64,000 nt of DNA, taken from NCBI RefSeq assembly GCF_018599185.1, contig NZ_JAHFVL010000001.1, forward strand, positions 620,001 through 684,000. The letters are read 5' to 3'. Of this stretch, positions 1 through 25,785 are shown piece after piece. The stretch's first letter is position 1. Each line of letters opens with the position of its first letter. Below the pieces are notes generated by a model, which saw only the letters and a program-made list of their open reading frames with translations, searched no databases and was not told where the DNA came from. The position numbers and the translations under genes were made by a program. This stretch comes from Rhodanobacter sp. LX-99 (GTDB lineage Bacteria; Pseudomonadota; Gammaproteobacteria; Xanthomonadales; Rhodanobacteraceae).

Positions 1-1152
1 AGTCCGGGCGAATTCTTCTTCATGGAGATGAACACGCGGCTGCAGGTCGAGCATCCGGTCACCGAGATGACGCTCGGCCTGGACCTGGTCGAGTGGCAGC
101 TGCGCGTCGCCGCCGGCGAGCCGCTGCCGCTGACGCAGGATCAGGTGCACGCGCACGGCCATGCCATCGAGGTGCGCCTGTACGCGGAAGACCCGGACCA
201 GAACTTCCTGCCCGGCTCCGGCAAGCTGCAAACCCTGCGCCTACCCGCGCCATCGCGCCACGTGCGCCTCGACGGCGGCGTGATCGAAGGCGACAGCGTG
301 ACGATCTTCTACGACCCGATGATCGCCAAGCTGATCGTGTGGGACGAGGACCGGCCGCAGGCCCTGCAGCGGCTTCGCGAGGCGCTGGCGGCCAGCGAGA
401 TCGTCGGCCCGAAATCGAACATCGGTTTCCTCGAACGGCTGGCGCGGCACCCGGCGGTGGTCGAGGGGCGCATCGACACCGGCTACCTGGATCGCCATCT
501 GGGCGAGTTCCTGGTCGGCGATGCCACGCCTTCCGACGGCACGCTGTTTGCCGCCGCCACCGCCGCGCTGCTGCACGACGAGCTGCACGTCCGGGGCGCT
601 CCGGTGGATCCGCACTCGCCCTGGGCGCGCGCCGACGCCTGGCGCATCGGCCATGCCGGCAAGCGCATCGTGGCACTGACCTCTCGCGAACGGCGTTTCG
701 AAGTCGAAGCGCACGGCCACGGCGGCGACTACCGGCTGCGCCACGGCGAGACCCACTGCGAAGTGCGCGGCGCGCGCGTGGCCGACAACAGCCTCAGCGC
801 CCGCTTCGACGGCGAATCCCTGCGCGTGCCGCTGCGCGCCGACGCGCAACGCGTGCTGCTGCACGACGCACATGGCCAGCGCCACCACTTCAGCCGCGCC
901 GCCGCGTTCGCCTGGGAACCGAAGGACGCGGCCGGCGGCAACCAGGTCATCGCGCCGATGCCCGGCCGCATCGTGCTGGTGAAGGCGCAGGCCGGCGATG
1001 TGGTGGAACACGGCCAGGAACTGCTGGTGATGGAGGCGATGAAGATGGAACTGGCCTTGAAGGCGCCACGTACCGGCACCATCGAAAGCGTGAACGCCAC
1101 GCAAGGCGAGTTCGTCGAGGCGGACGCCGTACTGGTGCGTTTCGCCGACTGA
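1..1152 (+). CDS. mccA: Methylcrotonyl-CoA carboxylase alpha (biotin-carboxylase/BCCP) subunit, 5' partial
   Basis: The reading frame is open from base 1, so the N-terminal part lies outside the window; 383 residues are visible. They start in the biotin carboxylase domain (MNTRLQVEHPVTE is the conserved ATP-grasp/biotin carboxylase motif) and continue through the carboxylase C-terminal domain. The last ~75 residues are a biotin carboxyl carrier domain with VMEAMKMEL; Lys348 of the visible part is the expected biotinylation site. Such subunits carboxylate biotin and pass it to an acyl-CoA carboxyltransferase. The HMG-CoA lyase gene directly downstream points to 3-methylcrotonyl-CoA as substrate (leucine/isovalerate, liu, pathway) rather than acetyl- or propionyl-CoA. 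The family assignment is firm; substrate is inferred from context. Confidence 0.9.
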   Translation, partial: SPGEFFFMEMNTRLQVEHPVTEMTLGLDLVEWQLRVAAGEPLPLTQDQVHAHGHAIEVRLYAEDPDQNFLPGSGKLQTLRLPAPSRHVRLDGGVIEGDSVTIFYDPMIAKLIVWDEDRPQALQRLREALAASEIVGPKSNIGFLERLARHPAVVEGRIDTGYLDRHLGEFLVGDATPSDGTLFAAATAALLHDELHVRGAPVDPHSPWARADAWRIGHAGKRIVALTSRERRFEVEAHGHGGDYRLRHGETHCEVRGARVADNSLSARFDGESLRVPLRADAQRVLLHDAHGQRHHFSRAAAFAWEPKDAAGGNQVIAPMPGRIVLVKAQAGDVVEHGQELLVMEAMKMELALKAPRTGTIESVNATQGEFVEADAVLVRFAD

Positions 1153-17191: not shown

Positions 17192-18487
17192 TCAACGATC
17201 GAGTTGATCCAGCCGTGCCCGCAATTCGTCCAGCCGCAAGTCGTTGCCGGCGCCTGGCGAGACGCGGGCGGCGAGGCTGCCTTCGGGCGTGCGCCCCTGC
17301 CCCGCGGATGCCGCGGTTTCCGCCGCCGCGCGATAGGCATCGCGGAACGGTACGCCGGCGGCGGCCTGCTCGATCGCCACGTCGGTGGCGTACATCGCCG
17401 GTTCGATCGCGGCGCGCATGGCGCCCGCGTTCCACTCAAGTCGTGCCAGCAGGTCGGGCACCAGCTCCAGCGCGCCCAGGCCGTGGCGCACGCCGTGGAA
17501 CAGCGAGCCCTTGGAAAACTGCAGGTCGCGCTGGTAGCCGGACGGCAGCGACAGCAGCTGTTCGATCTCGGTGCGCGCGGCGGCCACGCTGGCGTAGCTG
17601 GCGCGCAGCAGTTCGATCACGTCGGGGTTGCGCTTGTTCGGCATGATCGAACTGCCGGTGGTGTACTCGGCCGGCAGCTTGACGAAGTCGAATTCGGCGG
17701 TGGTGAACAACGACAGGTCCCAGGCCAGCCGGCGCAGGTCGAGCAGCGCGCCGCCGATCGCCTCCAGCACGGCCATCTCGAACTTGCCGCGCGACAGCTG
17801 CGCGTAGATCGGGCTGAGCTGCATGCGCGCGAAGCCGAGCGTCCGGGTGGTGTGCGCGCGGTCCAGCTTGAGGTTCACGCCGTAGCCGGCGGCGGTGCCG
17901 AGCGGATTGGCGTCGATCAGCGTCATCGTCTGCCGCGCGCGCAGCGCATTGTCGATGAAGCCTTCGGCGAAGCCGGCGAACCACATCGCGGTGGACGAAA
18001 CCACCGCGCGCTGCAGGTGGGTGTAACCGGGCACCGGCACGGCTTCTTGCGACGCGCGCTCAAGGCAGACCTCGGCGATGGCACGGCAATGCGATTCCAG
18101 CGCAGCCAGCTTGTCCTTCAGCCACAGTCGGGTGGCGACCAGGATCTGGTCGTTGCGGCTGCGCCCGGTATGCACGCGGCGGCCGGCGTCGCCGAGGCGC
18201 TCGGTGAGCCGCGCCTCGATTGCCGAATGGCCGTCCTCATAGCGCTCGTCCAGCACGAACGCGCCGCTCGTGAAATCCTCGGCCAGCGCATCCAGTTCGC
18301 GCTTCAACGCGGCGGCTTCGCCGGCGCTGACCACGCCGATGTTGGCCAGCCCTTCCACGTGCGCCTTGCTGGCGGTGATGTCGTGCAGGAAGAACTCGCG
18401 ATCCAGCAGCACGTCGTCGCCGGCGAGGAACTGCATGATCTTCGCGTCGATCTGGATGCCGGATTTTTGCCAGAGGGGTTGGGTCAT
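17192..18487 (-). CDS. argH: Argininosuccinate lyase
   Basis: 431 residues of the fumarase/aspartase superfamily. It splits argininosuccinate into arginine and fumarate, the final arginine step. The signature [13 protein letters not shown] is at residues 278-289 with the catalytic Ser in the flexible loop; HTGRSRNDQ and GYTHLQRA are also conserved. Length is slightly shorter than the ~460 of E. coli but matches the Xanthomonas type. A 118-base gap with a palindromic repeat separates it from argC. Confidence 0.96.
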
Positions 18488-18530
18488 GGAGATGTCCTGC
18501 TTGCGGAAGATGGTTCAATCACCTGGCTCG

Positions 18531-18604
18531 CCATCCCAGCGCAAGCTGGGATCCAGTGTCTTGTCCAGCAGAGACACTGGATTCCGGCTCTCGCCGGAAT
18601 GACG
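18531..18604. repeat. Palindromic intergenic repeat in the argC-argH gap
   Basis: Three hairpins follow each other: ATCCCAGC/GCTGGGAT arms, CCAGTGTC/GACACTGG arms and ATTCCGGC/GCCGGAAT arms ending in GAATGACGG. The last resembles the termini of the elements at 35411-35608 and 41746-41850. It may weaken or process the transcript between argC and argH. Confidence 0.6.
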
Positions 18605-18605
18605 G

Positions 18606-19562
18606 TCAAGTCACCGGAACGGCAGTGTATTCGTCCACGCCGATCGCGCGGTTGATGTTCTGCATTGCCTGGGAGGCGGCGCCCTTCAGCAGGTTGTCCA
18701 GCGTGGCCACGATCACCACCCGCTTGCCGTCGGCCGACACCGCGAAGCCGCCGATCTCGGCGTGGTGGCGGTGCGCGATGCGGCTGACCCAGGGCGCCTC
18801 GTCGGTCACGACGGCCAGCTTTTCGCCGTCGTAGGCGGCATGGAAACGCTGCAGCACTTCCTCGCGCTTCAGCGGGCGGGTGAGGTACAGGTTGGTGGTG
18901 ACGGTGAGCCCGCGGAAATGCGGCGCCACGTGCGGCATGAACTCCACCGGCACGCCGAGCCGGAAACTCGCCTCCTTCTCGTGCATGTGCCCGGTGAGCG
19001 CATACGGCATCAGGTTGTCGCGCAGCTTGTCCGGATCGTTCTTGTCCGACGGCGTGGTGCCGGCGCCGGAGTAGCCGGAGACGCCGAAGCACACCGGCGG
19101 CGCGGCCAGCAGATCCTTCAGCGGTGCGATGGAAAGCTGCATCGCGGTGGCGTAGCAGCCGGGGTTGCTGATGCGCTTCTCGCCCCGCCACTGCCCGCGG
19201 GTGAGTTCCGGCAGGCCGTAGTACCACGACGGATCGAAGCGGTAGTCGGCGGAGAGGTCGAGGATCAGCGTGTCCGGCTTCGCCGCGTCGATCGCCGCCA
19301 CGTACGGAGCCGCCTTGCCGTTCGGCAGCGCCAGGATCACCACGTCGGCACCCTGCGCCGCCACGGCGGCCGGGTCCAGGCTGGCATAGCGCAGTTCGCC
19401 GGCGTAGCCGTCGACGTGATCGGCCACGCGTTGGCCATCCAGTTCGCGCGAGGAGACGAAGGCCAGCTGCAGCACGGGATGCGCCGCGATCAGGCGGATC
19501 AGCTCCATGCCGGTATGGCCGCGCGCGCCGACGATGCCTGCCGTTTTCCTGTTCGTGTCCAT
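18606..19562 (-). CDS. argC: N-acetyl-gamma-glutamyl-phosphate reductase
   Basis: 318 residues. An N-terminal NADP-binding domain ([15 protein letters not shown]) and a catalytic domain with Cys136 in [12 protein letters not shown]. It reduces N-acetylglutamyl phosphate to N-acetylglutamate semialdehyde. The start is only 3 bases after the stop of the NAGS-K gene, whose product makes its substrate. Confidence 0.96.
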
Positions 19563-19565
19563 GGC

Positions 19566-20897
19566 TCAATCCACCAGTGTCGGCTGGCGTTGCGCGCAAT
19601 GCGCCACGCAGCGGGAAATCGTGTCGAGCTCGCCGATGCCGTACCAGAACACCTTCCAGCGCGGCTGCTTGATGCAGCCGTCCGATTCGGCGTAGTAGAA
19701 GTGGTTGACGGGGTTGCCGTGGCGCGAGCGCCAGAACAGCTTCGGGTTTTCCTCGCGCATCACCTGCCACACCGCGCGGCCCAGGCCTTCGCCCTGCGCG
19801 TCGTCGAGCACGGCGAACTTGTCGAGATACGGCAAGCCCCGCTCGTTATCGACATGTTCCTCGACGAGGATCATCGCGGCGCGGTAGTTCTCGCTGACGT
19901 AGATGCGCATCGGCCTGGTGCGCTCGAAATAGTCCGGCACCAGGGTGCGGCCGAAGCTGGATTCGATCAGTCCGCGCATGCGCGCGCGGTCCACGCCTTC
20001 CCAGGAATCGAAGCGCAGTACCTTCTCGCCGCGCCGCACGAGGGTGCCGGAACCCTTGTGGGTGAACAGCTCCTTGGCCAGTTCGGACGGACGGGTGATC
20101 GACACCGACGAGGTCAGCGGCAGGTCGGCCAGCAGGTCGGCGATCTGCTCGATCTTCAACCGCATGCCGCCATTGATCCACGGCTGCGCCATCAGCTGCT
20201 CGAATTCGGTGCTGAGGTTGATCGAATCGATCAGCTTGCCGTTTTCGTCAAGCAGGCCGCCGGTGCCGGTGAGGAACACGATCTTGTACGGCTGCAGCAC
20301 GCGCACCAGTTCGTTCGCGGCGACGTCGGCGTTGATGTTGAGGATCTGCCCTTCGTCGGTTTCGCCCAGGCTGGCGATCACCGGGATGGAGTTGGCGCGC
20401 AGGCTGGCCTCGATCGGCGCCAGGTTGATGCTGCGGACCTTGCCGACCAGACCGTAAATATCGCGGTCCAGGTAGTCGGCCATGAACACGCCGGTCGCCA
20501 CCGACGTGGCGCGCGTATCCATCGACTGCAGCGCCTCGACCAGTTTCAGGTTCTGCTGCTGGAACACGCGGCGCACGATGCCGAGCGCCTTCGGCGAAGT
20601 CACGCGCAGGCCGTCGATGGTGCGCTTCTCGATGCCGGCGGCGGCCAGCTCCTCGTCCAGCTGCGGACCGGCGCCGTGCAGCACGATCGGGGTCAACCCC
20701 ACCTGCTGCAGGAAGGTCAGCGACGAGGCGAGGTCGGCCAGTTCGTCGCGCAGCACCGCGCCGCCGACCTTCACCACGGCGAAACGCTTGGCGTCCAGCT
20801 CGGAGAAGCGCTTGAGGTATTGCTGGATTTCCTTCGCGCTGCCCATGCTCGAAAGCAGGCGCACGATGGTCTTGCGAGTGTGCTTATGCGTTTCCAT
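19566..20897 (-). CDS. argB: Bifunctional N-acetylglutamate synthase/kinase (NAGS-K)
   Basis: 443 residues with two parts. Residues ~35-285 are an amino acid kinase domain ([44 protein letters not shown]). Residues ~290-440 are a GNAT acetyltransferase domain of the vertebrate-like NAGS type ([39 protein letters not shown]). One protein therefore makes N-acetylglutamate and phosphorylates it, as known for Xanthomonas and Maricaulis. No separate argA is seen in the window. It follows argE' by 15 bases and precedes argC by 3. Confidence 0.95.
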
Positions 20898-20905
20898 GTT
20901 TATTC

Positions 20906-20985
20906 CTTGCGTTCATCCGTGAACGCCAGAGTCAAAAACCGGCCGTCCCTCGCCGGACTTCTCAATGATTCGATAAACCGTTTGC
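20906..20985 (-). repeat. Intergenic repeat copy overlapping the 3' end of argE'
   Basis: Read on the minus strand, it follows the same order as the units at 33594-33728 and 25384-25432: an ATTGA(G)AAGT start, a CCGGC..GGACGGCCGG palindrome, TTTTTGA, then a GCGTTCACGGATGAACGC hairpin. Positions 20913-20976 also encode the last ~20 codons of argE'. Confidence 0.65.
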
Positions 20986-22046
20986 GCATAGCGTTCGAGC
21001 TGCTCCAGCGCGACCCACTCGTCGGCGCTGTGCGCCTGGGCGATGTCGCCGGGGCCGCAGACGAAGGCGGTGTAGCCGGCGGCGGAGAACAGCGCGGCCT
21101 CGGTCCAGAAATCCACCGCATTGCCGACCGGAATGCCCAGCTCGTCGGCGAGGTCGCGCGCGACCAAACGGTTCGCCTCGGCGTTCGCCGTGTCGCCGGC
21201 CGGCAGCGAGGCGCCGCGGAAGGTCTCGGCGAACTCCGCCGGCTGCGGCTCCACCAAGGTGCGGAAACGCGTCAGCAACTGATCCGGATCCATTGTCGGC
21301 AACGCGCGAAAGCCGAAGCGCACTTCCGCCGTGGGCGCGATCATGTTCGCCTTGATGCCGCCCTCGATGCGGCCGATGTTGAAGCGCAGGCCGGTCAGCC
21401 CGCCGAAGCGCTCGTGCGACTGCGCCGCCACGAAATCCAGCGCCGCGTTGCCCCAGCGCACCGCCTGATGCAGCGCGCTGTCGCTGGGCTTCTGTTCGCC
21501 CGAGGCATGTCCGGCGTGGCCGGCGAAGCGCATAAGCACCGACTGGATGCCGCGATGCGCCAGCACGGCTTCACCCTTCGTGGGTTCGGCCACGATCACC
21601 GCCTCATAGGCACGCGGCTCGCGCAGGAAGCCGGCGATGCAGCGCGCATCGTTGGCTTCCTCGTCGGTGGAGAACAGCAGCGCCAGATCGCCATCGCTGG
21701 CATTCGCCACCGCCAGCAACGCCGCCGCTGCACCCTTGATGTCGCACGCGCCCAGGCCGATCGCGCGATCGGCGGTGACCCGCAGCACGTGCGGGTCGGC
21801 GGTCCACGCCGGCGAATCCGGCACGGTGTCCAGGTGCACGTTGAACAGATACTTCGGCTCGCCGCGCACGGCGTGCAAGGCCACCGCGCCGGCGCCGAAA
21901 TCGGTCACCGTCATCTCGAAGCCGGGCAACTGCGCGCGCAGATAGTCGAAGATGCCGCCCGTATCGATCGCACGCGGCGGGTTGCGCGTGTCGAAACCGA
22001 CCAGCGCCTCCAAGTGTTTCAACGTGGCATCGAGCAGTGCGCTCAT
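20913..22046 (-). CDS. argE: N-acetylcitrulline deacetylase (ArgE-type M20 peptidase)
   Basis: 377 residues, M20 metallopeptidase fold. Metal-binding segments are [29 protein letters not shown] and the C-terminal [14 protein letters not shown]. In this gene order (after argF' and argG) the family member hydrolyses N-acetylcitrulline to citrulline rather than acetylornithine; that is established for Xanthomonas and inferred here. The start overlaps the argG stop (ATGA). The last ~16 residues ([16 protein letters not shown]) are encoded by a genomic repeat rather than by conserved family sequence. Confidence 0.9.
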
Positions 22047-23236
22047 CCGCGGTTGACCTCGGCCCACAGCGTGCTGCTCATGCCGAACAGCTTGATGAAG
22101 CCCTCGGCCTCTTCCACGCCCCAGTCGGCCGACTGCGCATAGGTGGCGCCCTTGGCATTGAGGATGTGCTTCGACTCGACGGCGACCGCACCGACGCTGC
22201 CGCCGCTCGTCTCCAGCGTCACCGTGCCGTTGACGGTGGACTGGCTGGAGGCCAGGAACGCTTCCAGGTCGGTCTTCAGCGGGTCGTGGAAGAAGCCCTC
22301 GTAGACCAGTTCCACCCACTTGCGCGCCACCTCGGGCTTGAAGCGGTTCTGCTGCTTGCTGAGCACCGCCTCTTCCAGCGCGCGGTGCGCGGCGAGCAGC
22401 GCGGTGAGGCCCGGTGCCTCGAAGATGATGCGGCCCTTGAGGCCGATCGTGGTGTCGCCGGTGTAGAGGCCGCGGCCCACGCCGTAGGGCGCGAACAGGC
22501 TGTTGAGCTTCGCCAGCATGGTGTGCCCGGCGATCGCCTCGCCGTCCAGCGTCACCGCCTCGCCGTTGACGAAGCCGATCTTCACCTGCAGCGGTTTGGA
22601 CGGCCATTCGGCGCGCGGCTTGCACCAACCCACCGCGCCGGCGCCGGGCGCCTGCCACTGGTCGATCTCGCCGCCGGACATGGTCAGTCCGAGCAGGTTC
22701 TCGTTGATGGTGTAGGCCTGCTGCTTGGCGCGCACGCCGAAGCCACGGTCTTCCAGATACTTCTGCTCGTAGGCGCGCGTCTGCGTGTGTTCCTTCTGGA
22801 TCTCGCGGATCGGCGCCACGATCTGGTAGTCGCCCAGCGCCTTCACCGCCAGGTCGAAGCGCACCTGGTCGTTGCCCATGCCGGTGCAGCCGTGTGCGAT
22901 GGCGCGCGTGCCCAGCTCCGCGGCGCGCTTCAGCGCGGCCTCGACGATCAGGTAGCGGTCGGACACCAGCAGCGGGTACTGGCCCTGGTAGCCCTCGCCG
23001 GCCCAGACGAACGGCTTGACGAAACCGTTCCAGATCGCCGGGCCGCCGTCCACGGTGACGTGACTGGCCACGCCCAGCTCCTTCGCGCGGTTCTCGATGA
23101 AGGCGCGCTCCGCGGCGTCCACGCCGCCAGTATCGGCAAACACGGTGTGCACGGCCCAGCCGCGCTCCTGCAGATAGGGTACGCAGAAGCTGGTGTCGAG
23201 GCCGCCGGAAAAGGCGAGGACGATGTCTTTGCTCAT
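22043..23236 (-). CDS. argG: Argininosuccinate synthase
   Basis: 397 residues. It joins citrulline and aspartate with ATP to give argininosuccinate. The N-terminal [15 protein letters not shown] is the PP-loop ATP site; [14 protein letters not shown] is the citrulline/aspartate-binding segment, and the C-terminal region from ~residue 180 gives the multimer domain. It overlaps argE' by four bases and follows the OsmC gene by 27 bases. Confidence 0.96.
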
Positions 23237-24363: not shown

Positions 24364-25371
24364 TCAGCCCTGCCCGATCAGCGAAGCCATTACCGCCTTC
24401 TGCACGTGCAGGCGATTCTCGGCCTCGTCGATGGTGATGCAGTACGGCGCATCCATCACCGCGTCGGTGGCCTTGATGTTCCGGCGCAGCGGCAGGCAGT
24501 GGCTGAACAGTCCGTGGTTGGTGAGCGCCATCTTCGCCTCGTCGACGATGAAGTGCCTGCTCGCTTCGCGGACAGGCTTTTCCTGCTCCCACCGGCCGAA
24601 GAACGGCAACGCGCCCCAGCTCTTGGCGTAGACCACGTCGGCGCCGGCGTAGGCTTCCTCGATGTCGTGGCTGACCTTCAGCGAGCCGCCGTTCTGTTCG
24701 GCGTTCAGACGGCCAAACGCCATGTAGCGCTCGTCCAGCACGTAATCGGGCGTGGGGCACAGCAAGGTCACGTCCATGCCCAGCTTGGTCGCGATCAGCA
24801 GCGCGGAGTTCGCCACCGCGGTGTTCAGCGGTTTCGGGTGGTAGGTCCAGGTCAGCACGTACTTCTTGTTCTGCAGGTCGCCCAGGTGCTCCTTCAGCGC
24901 CAGCGCGTGGGCCAGCTCCTGGCAGGGATGGGTAATCGTCTCCATGTTGATCACCGGCACCGTGGCGTATTGCGCGAACGCCTTGATCACCTTGTCCTGC
25001 CGGTCCACCGTCCAATCCTGGAACTTCGGGAACGCGCGCACCGCGATCAGGTCGACGTAACGCGACAGCACCCGTGCCACCTCGGCAATGTGCTCCTCGG
25101 TATCGCCGTCCATCACGCTGCCCACCTCGAACTCGATCGGCCACGCGTCCTTGCCAGGCGCCAGCACGATGGCGTGGCCGCCCAACTGGAACGCACCCAG
25201 CTCGAAACTGGTGCGGGTGCGCATCGAGGGATTGAAGAACAGCAATGCGATCGACTTGCCGGCGAGCTGCTGGCCGCGCGGCGAACGCTTGAACGCGGCA
25301 GCCTGCTCCAGCAGCGCGTCGATCTCGGCGCGGCTGTAATCCTGGGTGGTCAAGAAATGCCGAATGGTCAT
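24364..25371 (-). CDS. argF': N-acetylornithine carbamoyltransferase
   Basis: 335 residues, aspartate/ornithine carbamoyltransferase superfamily. The carbamoyl phosphate motif FFNPSMRTRTSFE, the THPCQELAHALAL segment and the HCLPLRRN loop are present. The surrounding residues (PGKDAWPIEFEVGSVMDG, RAFPKFQDW, LTWTYHPKPLNTAVANS) closely follow the Xanthomonas N-acetylornithine enzyme rather than ordinary OTCase. It converts N-acetylornithine and carbamoyl phosphate to N-acetylcitrulline, the reason argE' works late in this pathway. It is the first gene of the minus-strand arginine block. Confidence 0.95.
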   Translation of the reverse strand: MTIRHFLTTQDYSRAEIDALLEQAAAFKRSPRGQQLAGKSIALLFFNPSMRTRTSFELGAFQLGGHAIVLAPGKDAWPIEFEVGSVMDGDTEEHIAEVARVLSRYVDLIAVRAFPKFQDWTVDRQDKVIKAFAQYATVPVINMETITHPCQELAHALALKEHLGDLQNKKYVLTWTYHPKPLNTAVANSALLIATKLGMDVTLLCPTPDYVLDERYMAFGRLNAEQNGGSLKVSHDIEEAYAGADVVYAKSWGALPFFGRWEQEKPVREASRHFIVDEAKMALTNHGLFSHCLPLRRNIKATDAVMDAPYCITIDEAENRLHVQKAVMASLIGQG

Positions 25372-25383
25372 GAAGTCGATGCC

Positions 25384-25480
25384 TTATTGAAGAGTCCGGC
25401 CATGGATGGCCGGGGTGTTGCGAACGGATTCGCGCCAGATTGTGTGGTCCGGCCATGGACGACCGGGGTGTTGCGGATGG
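25384..25480 (+). repeat. Two-unit intergenic repeat upstream of argF'
   Basis: Unit 1 (25384-25432) starts TTATTGAAGAGT, has the palindrome CCGGCCATGGATGGCCGG, then GGTGTTGCG; unit 2 (from ~25448) repeats TCCGGCCATGGACGACCGG and GGTGTTGCGGA. Related units lie at 33594-33728 and 20906-20985. They occupy the gap between the leader region and the argF' start. Confidence 0.65.
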
Positions 25481-25508: not shown

Positions 25509-25524
25509 CCGGCACGCAGGCCGG
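25509..25524 (-). terminator. Second, weaker hairpin with T-run ahead of argF'
   Basis: On the minus strand, CCGGC (25524-25520) and GCCGG (25513-25509) form a 5-bp stem followed by GTTTTTT. It sits just downstream of the stronger hairpin at 25547-25570 and repeats its GCCGGGTTTTTT ending. Confidence 0.4.
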
Positions 25525-25546
25525 CCAGCCTTTAATCAAAACAAAA

Positions 25547-25570
25547 AAACCCGGCTCAAGAGCCGGGTTT
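25547..25570 (-). terminator. Strong intrinsic terminator, candidate attenuator of the arg operon
   Basis: Perfect 10-bp arms (AAACCCGGCT/AGCCGGGTTT, 4-base loop), followed on the minus strand by an uninterrupted run of T. It lies 33 bases after the stop of a 34-codon reading frame (25604-25708) and ~175 bases before argF'. The segment ACCCGGC of its first arm is exactly complementary to GCCGGGT at the leader's stop codon (25606-25612), which would allow an alternative antiterminator. Confidence 0.7.
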
Positions 25571-25603
25571 TATCGTCGATGCACATGAAACGCGTGCGAC
25601 TGC

Positions 25604-25708
25604 CTACCCGGCCGAGTGTCCATACAACGGTCGGCGCGCACGCGACGTCATACCAGCAGCCGCGCGGGCGCTGGTCAGTACGGTGGCGGTATAGACGGCT
25701 GTGGACAT
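25604..25708 (-). CDS. Candidate 34-residue leader peptide with clustered Arg codons
   Basis: A short frame starts at ATG 25708 and ends with TAG at 25604. It encodes 34 residues with Arg at 15, 23, 25 and 26 (SRARRP near the end). CGGA about 7 bases before the ATG is a weak ribosome site. The frame lies upstream of the arginine genes and is followed by a strong terminator, as in amino acid attenuators. Minus-strand TTGCAT and CATCAT 17 bases apart, ~60-30 bases upstream of the ATG, could be a weak promoter. Arg is common in GC-rich DNA, so chance cannot be excluded; there is no proof of translation. Confidence 0.35.
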   Translation of the reverse strand: MSTAVYTATVLTSARAAAGMTSRARRPLYGHSAG

Positions 25709-25785
25709 GCGGATTCCGAGTGACGAGTGCGCATGATGGCGGCAATTTCGCTGCCATGCAACAAAAAAATCGAACCCCTGAACGA

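Follow-up and report, generated by a model that had tools for sequence, protein, structure and literature searches.

The window analysed here, a 64,000 nt stretch of the genome of Rhodanobacter sp. LX-99 (contig NZ_JAHFVL010000001.1, positions 620,001 to 684,000), carries an arginine biosynthesis operon on its minus strand. The DNA upstream of argF', the first gene of this operon, very probably encodes a transcription attenuator of the classical ribosome-mediated kind, by which the level of charged tRNA-Arg would control the genes from argF' to argH, though the response to arginine is read from sequence. A first-pass annotation had proposed such an attenuator, with an Arg-rich leader peptide, and this interpretation is supported. 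The evidence comprises a short leader frame with conservation at the codon level, an intrinsic terminator, an alternative pairing whose parts are coordinated, the spacing of these parts, and the lack of a match to the arginine repressor ArgR in this genome.

The leader frame of 34 codons begins with the ATG at 25708 and has Arg codons at positions 15, 23, 25 and 26, exactly as the first-pass annotation had it; the last three are CGT (25642-25640), CGC (25636-25634) and CGA (25633-25631). Its description of the terminator was also correct: AAACCCGGCT-CTTG-AGCCGGGTTT (25570-25547), located 33 nt past the leader stop, is a perfect 10-bp stem that runs into seven T residues (to 25543). The same is true of the alternative pairing, as GCCGGGT at the leader stop (25612-25606) is the exact complement of ACCCGGC (25568-25562) in the first arm of the terminator. 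Two further claims came out less plainly. A 1:2 stem with one mismatch had been proposed, and its six pairs form in 78 to 81 of 81 sequences from the family of the window, but a different stem is predicted in another family (f2, see below) and, because the six pairs show little variation in the 81 sequences, covariation does not prove the stem. A second hairpin with a T run is present downstream (25524-25509), but it is not general. Any second terminator-like hairpin at this place was found in only 7 of 80 family loci, the window counted, and we therefore regard it as a local extra. A promoter-like site (TTGCAT and CATCAT, 17 bp apart, 25761-25733) and the Shine-Dalgarno-like (SD-like) motif CGGAA precede the frame, and transcription therefore likely starts upstream of it. 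Sites conforming to TTGYRN-16..18-YATNAT were found in a pattern search 5' of 78 of 80 family leaders, and an SD-like motif precedes 62 of 80. The predicted start thus lies on the expected side of 25547, and an RNA 5' end mapped in Xanthomonas oryzae (see below) also corresponds to a place before the leader frame.

DNA upstream of relatives of ArgF' was compared at 182 loci (the window, groups of 80, 60 and 40 loci, and L219) from 11 families of the order. Families are referred to by number; f1 is the family of the window, with named loci mostly from Rhodanobacter, Dyella, Frateuria and Luteibacter. Leader frames that contain clustered Arg codons and precede a terminator were found at 171 of the 182 loci and in 10 of the 11 families, namely 84/85 loci in f1, 33/33 in f2, 3/3 in f3, 6/6 in f4, 3/3 in f5, 2/2 in f7, 24/24 in f8, 9/9 in f9, 6/15 in f10 and 1/1 in f11, and at 0/1 in f6. 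The Arg cluster in f11 was judged by eye, and those in the other positive families by a choice of frame that was blind to Arg. L219, L240 (with a GTG start) and L256 were judged by eye alone. Twelve leaders in f5 and f7 to f10 were defined from landmarks picked by eye, and for 11 of them, all but L196, the blind choice arrived at an identical frame. The peptides of f5 and f7 to f11 have little in common beyond runs of Arg; examples are peptides ending in ...VVVRRRRPLRQMELFG (f9) and ...AALRRRRRLSQRRAG (f5), RRLRRPGFH (f8), NPRRRRVLQSTAG (f7) and LLRRRSRRPMSARA (f10). In f8 and f9 (L200-L207, L227-L246 and L258-L264) a Pro codon often appears to follow the Arg pair (RRP), as it does in f1 to f4; the Pro could possibly enhance a pause.

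Within f1, the 462-base query region matched 143 of 147 genomes and all 26 genera in a DNA search, where some of the weak matches may reflect the dispersed repeat CCCCGGCCATCCATGGCCGGAC, which the query contains. The leader core is present in 80 of 81 loci (the window and 80 relatives), and the remaining locus, L049, is not judgeable as it ends 66 nt upstream of argF'. The length from codon 20 to the stop is identical in 80/80 loci, and a start codon is found 19 codons before codon 20 in 78 (72 ATG, 6 GTG); L043, in which the upstream DNA resembles sequencing adaptor, and L082 have neither ATG nor GTG at position 1. For codons 17-27, the heterozygosity summed over 126 loci from f1 to f4 was 0.47, 0.11 and 3.37 at codon positions 1, 2 and 3, respectively, and in f1 alone it was 0, 0 and 2.55, i.e. 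variation is found at third positions only. Selection of the rows for f1 to f4 required ATG at codon 20 and given bases at the first two positions of codons 21-25, yet it removed nothing, because every assessable locus in these families fitted this pattern. The core pattern was found once each in 78 of 200 genomes of the order, and a reversed control pattern gave no matches. The small frame and its Arg codons are therefore conserved in relatives, so that this check, named in the first-pass annotation, came out in its favour.

Conservation extends beyond the Arg codons. A17, M20, T21 and S22 are kept in 126/126 loci of f1 to f4 and G19 in 124/126, and as the third positions of the codons for A17, G19 and T21 vary, it is these residues that are under selection. 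Codons 28-32, just before the stop, drift. A silent base is also fixed in two codons, with TCG at codon 22 in 126/126 and CGA at codon 26 in 123/126 loci; a wider pattern search recovered two genomes with TCC at codon 22. CGA is rare: of the 229 Arg codons that nine window genes contain (counted over frames without internal stops), 5 are CGA, and at codon 26 this codon may sharpen the stall. A hairpin between TCG and CGA was considered as a cause for the conservation of the silent sites; the energy predicted for it is small (-1.2 to -2.4 kcal/mol), and TCG:CGA was unpaired in one of two test strings. The leader peptides gave no match in Pfam or NCBIfam.

The window leader stands above chance because it is conserved in relatives and not by its own Arg score. 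For the statistics, the longest ATG frame before the terminator was used, chosen blind to Arg, because choosing the frame with the most Arg codons gave out-of-frame artefacts in several GC-rich loci of f1 to f4. In the second set of loci, the longest frame scored as high as the best-Arg frame in 29 of 30 scored loci. The mean number of Arg codons in the best 10 codons was 3.3 in f1, 3.1 in f2, 3.7 in f3, 3.3 in f4, 6.0 in f5, 5.0 in f7, 5.3 in f8, 5.0 in f9 and 4.0 in f10, and 0.3-0.8 in dinucleotide shuffles. For all nine first-set loci in f5, f7, f8 and f9, no more than 1.5 % of shuffles reached the score of the locus, and for the f10 loci 0, 0.5 and 29.5 % did. This test rests on the first automatic choice of terminator, which took the wrong hairpin in 13 f1 loci; for the comparison of arms, the terminator was chosen again relative to the leader stop.

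A terminator was called by script in 136 of 138 first-set leaders, and the other two (L185 and L190) have a hairpin with an interrupted T run (by eye). For the 136 leaders, the arm at the stop codon and the 5' and 3' arms of the terminator were compared as triples. GCCGGG/CCCGGC/GCCGGG was found in 75, all in f1, and GCTGGG/CCCAGC/GCTGGG in 36 (30 in f2, two in f5 and one each in f1, f4, f7 and f8). CCAGGT/ACCTGG/CCAGGT was found in one, L207 (f9). In the second set, CCAGGT/ACCTGG was found in three f9 loci (L259, L260 and L264) and GGTCGG/CCGACC in L245. The stop-codon arm and both terminator arms thus change together, as competition between a terminator and an antiterminator demands, and the compensatory change in the 2:3 and 3:4 stems that had been named as support for the attenuator is seen as arms changing in step between families. 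Within f1, L182 carries the GCTGGG triple, which is an independent switch inside one family. Over 166 loci, the match of the arm to its own partner was 6.57, compared with a maximum of 5.73 in 2000 permutations of the 3' arms (relatedness ignored).

When the 3' arm was omitted, the antiterminator was part of the minimum free energy (MFE) structure in 83/84 leaders of f1, 31/33 of f2, 3/3 of f3, 2/2 of f5, 1/1 of f7 and 3/4 of f8. RNAalifold applied to the antiterminator segment in f1 did not include the 2:3 stem in the consensus, the arms being split by alignment gaps, whereas folds of single sequences gave the stem. In folds of the window that represent the RNA prior to synthesis of the 3' arm, the antiterminator persists with a ribosome placed on codon 23, 25 or 26 but not with one on the stop. 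Spacing was examined in the 125 loci with an arm match of at least 6 bases that also have an Arg codon 13 nt or more ahead of the arm. The distance from the first base of the last such codon to the arm is 14-24 nt (median 20), and in 122 of these loci no more than 12 nt separate the stop codon from the start of the arm. The ribosome footprint is taken as approximately 12-13 nt beyond the first base of the A-site codon. This geometry fits the switch, because a ribosome at Arg must free region 2 and a ribosome at the stop must cover it.

From these features we infer translation of the leader in the cell, stalling within it and a response to arginine, by the following route. RNA polymerase would start near 25730 (predicted), with a ribosome translating the 34-codon leader behind it. 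When arginine is ample, the ribosome would reach the TAG and cover GCCGGGT, leaving ACCCGGC free to pair with the GCCGGGT of the terminator, and transcription would end near 25543 with release of a short leader RNA. When charged tRNA-Arg is scarce, the ribosome would stall at CGT-GCG-CGC-CGA, approximately 20 nt before GCCGGGT, which could then pair with ACCCGGC, so that the terminator would be blocked and the operon read.

The distribution of ArgR adds to this picture. Of 121 genomes of the order, only 8 matched ArgR (PF02863), each of them belonging to a further family, f12, and there was no PF02863 match in the genome of the window nor in 112 of the 120 other genomes; in a control, the same search matched 8 of 14 named genomes, E. 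coli among them. At six f12 loci, argF directly follows the end of an argD-like gene and has no leader (by eye), and the carbamoyltransferase is only 38-44 % identical. The attenuator therefore goes with the absence of ArgR, since ArgR was found only in the family where six argF loci have no leader. In this order, the leader seems to take the place that ArgR holds elsewhere, which we infer together with the order of events. The type of ArgF' found here gave three matches at E<=1e-100 among 185 genomes of the class, its own genome included, all in this order. The leaderless ArgF' loci are L195 (f6) and L199, L247, L248 and L250-L255 (f10), of which L247 keeps a terminator-like hairpin. All ArgR matches fell in f12 and not in these two families.

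A version of this leader is recorded already under another description. The window had no Rfam match at gathering scores, T-box included, and did not reach the cutoff (50 bits) for RF02242, sRNA Xoo5. In a permissive Rfam scan of 12 loci, RF02242 matched three leaders of f2, with two scores above the cutoff, and gave a weak partial row on L191. Among 200 genomes, RF02242 was above the cutoff in 28, all in f2, and all 28 matches are just upstream of an ArgF' match (by eye). Family f2 was taken as Xanthomonadaceae because RF02242 matches it. RF02242 is the f2 version of the arginine leader. The first base of the RF02242 model is 2 nt before the leader ATG in L148 (match 351-474), and the model ends before the terminator. 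If the 5' end determined by RACE holds, the f2 leader mRNA would be almost leaderless, while a 5' untranslated region of approximately 20 nt with an SD-like motif is predicted for the family of the window. In Xanthomonas oryzae PXO99, sRNA-Xoo5 lies between PXO_00354 and PXO_00353, and PXO_00353, the downstream gene, encodes N-acetylornithine carbamoyltransferase (PMC3039613). The main text of that report has no words beginning with 'arginine', 'leader' or 'ornithine', and describes two transcripts in early growth and later only the short one (PMC3039613). A possible second copy of RF02242 in the genome of the window (C1:457684-457824, 28.9 bits, the only match at E<=0.01) is opposite a trpA-like gene and was rejected as a chance match.

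Several results weigh against a simple attenuator model. Eleven of the 182 loci are without a leader or not judgeable (L049, the only f6 locus and 9 of 15 in f10). Taken alone, the window is unremarkable, as 16 % of dinucleotide shuffles scored at least as high as its longest ORF (3 Arg in 10 codons), and most single loci in f3 and f4 are within chance (2.5, 3.5 and 16 % of shuffles in f3, and 6.5-20.5 % in f4). In L196 (f10), the blind choice picked another frame. Of the triples of arms, 24 of 136 are not plainly concordant. By our own reading, five of these rows hold both leader motifs and three have an inexact 3' arm; 12 are without a simple arm at the stop, including three f10 rows and L206, for which a shifted register would allow pairing; a single mismatch is found in two f8 rows; and in L178 and L200 the pairing can be held by G-U. 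The match to the own arm was below 5 in 16 of 166 loci, and three loci with a GTCGGG arm showed no advantage (own match 5.0, foreign arms 5.15). The antiterminator was absent from the MFE structure, computed on a fixed segment, in f4 (0/4), f9 (0/2) and f10 (0/3). In folds of the window, the terminator wins whenever the 3' arm is present and the 5' arm is free, and the switch must therefore be kinetic, as attenuators of this type are generally held to be. The conserved residues A17, G19, M20, T21 and S22 sit among the Arg codons, and the counting of codons needs none of them. Termination at the hairpin predicts a transcript of approximately 156 nt in L148, longer than the 124 nt of Xoo5 (5' end by RACE, 3' end from a clone) and the Northern bands of approximately 130 and 100 nt given in the part of the report available (PMC3039613); the discrepancy may come from processing or an error in size. 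That report also describes normal growth of a Xoo5 deletion strain in rich and minimal medium (PMC3039613), which is compatible with de-repression and proves nothing.

As codon counting does not predict A17-G19-M20-T21-S22, a contribution from the nascent peptide was considered. If AxGMTSRARRP itself delays or halts the ribosome, possibly by binding arginine as a ligand, the peptide would set the switch beside the charging of tRNA-Arg; a precedent for a responsive nascent peptide is SpeFL, which responds to ornithine. The near-invariance of these residues while the third positions of codons 17, 19 and 21 are free and codons 28-32 drift is what such a peptide would show, and the motif is encoded once per genome. 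However, the layout in f5 and f7 to f11 is the same although their peptides have little in common apart from runs of Arg, residues 28-32, which lie immediately ahead of the stop, are not conserved, and the silent bases of TCG 22 and CGA 26 are fixed, which suggests that part of the conservation stems from the RNA or the codons. We consider peptide control unlikely. A hybrid confined to f1 to f4, in which AxGMTSRARRP acts in the exit tunnel as a pause enhancer or an arginine-responsive arrest element on top of the sensing of tRNA-Arg, and in which the RNA released by termination (Xoo5) builds up in stable form, maybe with a second role in trans, is also rather improbable, if a little less so.

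An arginine-binding riboswitch, or a leader RNA bound by a protein, would make the small frame incidental. Riboswitches also have conserved terminator/antiterminator pairs, and the silent sites at codons 22 (TCG) and 26 (CGA) would suit an RNA element, but the core varies at third codon positions, the length from codon 20 to the stop is kept in 80/80 loci, and what is visible across families is Arg codons and arms (aptamers were sought in Rfam only). The permissive scan of 12 loci gave no riboswitch or T-box row and, beyond RF02242, only chance-level rows; on the window leader, Thr_leader scored 25.1 bits (E 0.32) and Leu_leader 23.6 bits (E 0.27), far below cutoff. A riboswitch is the least probable of the explanations. 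Scarcely more credible is that the hairpins merely terminate the upstream gene, or belong to an independent trans-acting sRNA, as in the filing of Xoo5, with no control of argF'. Xoo5 had been observed as a discrete RNA species and was deposited in the sRNA category, and its deletion was reported, in the part available, to have no effect on flanking genes (PMC3039613). Against this, the leader accompanies argF' at 171 of the 182 loci, in the family of the window a promoter-like site of its own precedes it, and the upstream gene has a hairpin of its own at 25812-25786 (by eye), as the first-pass annotation had also noted. Antiterminator arms and Arg codons are left unexplained. The terminated leader of an attenuator could also act in trans. 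An attenuator sensing charged tRNA-Arg therefore remains the preferred explanation.

Classical attenuators of the type described by Yanofsky are known for the his, thr, leu, ilv, trp and pheA operons of proteobacteria. The leader described here is like these in having a short frame with control codons, 2:3 and 3:4 arms together with a predicted 1:2 stem, and an intrinsic terminator, and in preceding the first gene of the matching operon. It is unlike them in that the control amino acid is arginine. In fungi, the arginine attenuator peptide is also a short upstream frame tied to arginine, but it acts by peptide arrest on eukaryotic ribosomes with no terminator. In the part available of a 2005 survey, attenuators are named for His, Thr and Phe, and Tyr and Arg are assigned to T-boxes (PMC1262725). 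For biosynthetic operons of Proteobacteria, the portion of the open literature covered showed no attenuator specific for arginine, although an earlier description may exist; this agrees with the remark of the first-pass annotation that such attenuators are rarely described in Proteobacteria. The nearest known case, judged from the available part of the report, is orf34 in the speF leader of Salmonella, which also has 34 codons and senses arginine by ribosome pausing at Arg codons 12-13 (PMC6386406). As described there, orf34 controls ornithine decarboxylase via Rho, RNase G and the ribosome-binding site, whereas here the target is an arg operon and the terminator is intrinsic. The likeness is drawn from the description of orf34, and the leader in the window precedes argF' and not speF. 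The carAB leader of Pseudomonas is similar in being a leader-peptide region before an arginine/pyrimidine gene that gives a short RNA, but there pyrimidines attenuate and, according to the part available, arginine acts transcriptionally by another route (PMC4997734). RF02242 is filed as an sRNA of unknown role, and its model misses the version in the window at the cutoff.

The leader is best read as a known mechanism with a new specificity (arginine) that has a wide and coherent distribution and occurs where ArgR is absent. It would fill the arginine gap in the catalogue of classical attenuators and suggests that arginine synthesis is controlled without ArgR in the order of Rhodanobacter, Dyella, Luteibacter and Xanthomonas (the last via Xoo5). 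An orphan Rfam sRNA becomes the likely by-product of a cis switch, and the families provide a natural series, from plain RRRR leaders to the constrained AxGMTSRARRP, for how leader peptides gain sequence constraint.

The features of the leader region and the arginine genes are listed in Table 1. Fusion of argB and argA is typical of this order. Between argF' and argG there are a gene for an FMN-binding protein (PF04299, 24357-23734) and an OsmC-like gene (PF02566, within 23956-23264).

Table 1. Leader region and arginine genes in the window (positions in the 64,000 nt stretch)
Feature	Position	Strand	Basis or remark
-35-like TTGCAT	25756..25761	-	Consensus match only
-10-like CATCAT, 17-bp spacer to TTGCAT	25733..25738	-	Consensus match only
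SD-like CGGAAT, ahead of leader ATG	25713..25718	-	
Leader frame MSTAVYTATVLTSARAAAGMTSRARRPLYGHSAG and TAG, 34 sense codons	25604..25708	-	ATG 25708-25706, TAG 25606-25604
Arg codon 15 (CGC)	25664..25666	-	Arg in 80/80 family loci and 115/126 f1-f4 loci
Control codons 23-26, Arg-Ala-Arg-Arg (CGT GCG CGC CGA), then Pro 27	25631..25642	-	126/126 f1-f4 loci
Region 1, CCGACCG, proposed 1:2 partner of CGGCCGG 25614-25608	25628..25634	-	RNAalifold, 81 family sequences; nearly invariant
Region 2, antiterminator arm GCCGGGT, overlaps stop codon	25606..25612	-	Covaries with terminator arms between families
Region 3, terminator 5' arm AAACCCGGCT, common to antiterminator (2:3) and terminator (3:4)	25561..25570	-	
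Region 4, terminator 3' arm AGCCGGGTTT with T run	25543..25556	-	
Second terminator-like hairpin with T run	25509..25524	-	Local extra
argF', N-acetylornithine carbamoyltransferase type, first operon gene	24364..25371	-	Pfam OTCace_N, OTCace
Remaining arginine genes	17192..23236	-	
argG	23236-22043	-	Pfam
argE-like deacylase, between argG and argB/argA		-	Named from own sequence only
argB/argA fusion	20897-19566	-	Pfam, amino-acid kinase and N-acetylglutamate synthase NAT domains
argC	19562-18606	-	Pfam
argH	18487-17192	-	Pfam

A search for second copies of the leader gave 11 other DNA matches, but these cover only positions 400-454 of the query, which correspond to a dispersed repeat and not to the leader. 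This palindromic repeat, CCCCGGCCATCCATGGCCGGAC, is preceded by a short hairpin and located between the terminator and argF' at 25388-25413 (and 25470-25380). It is present here in two similar copies, has 11 further matches in the genome and is REP-like, and its copy number differs among relatives (by eye).
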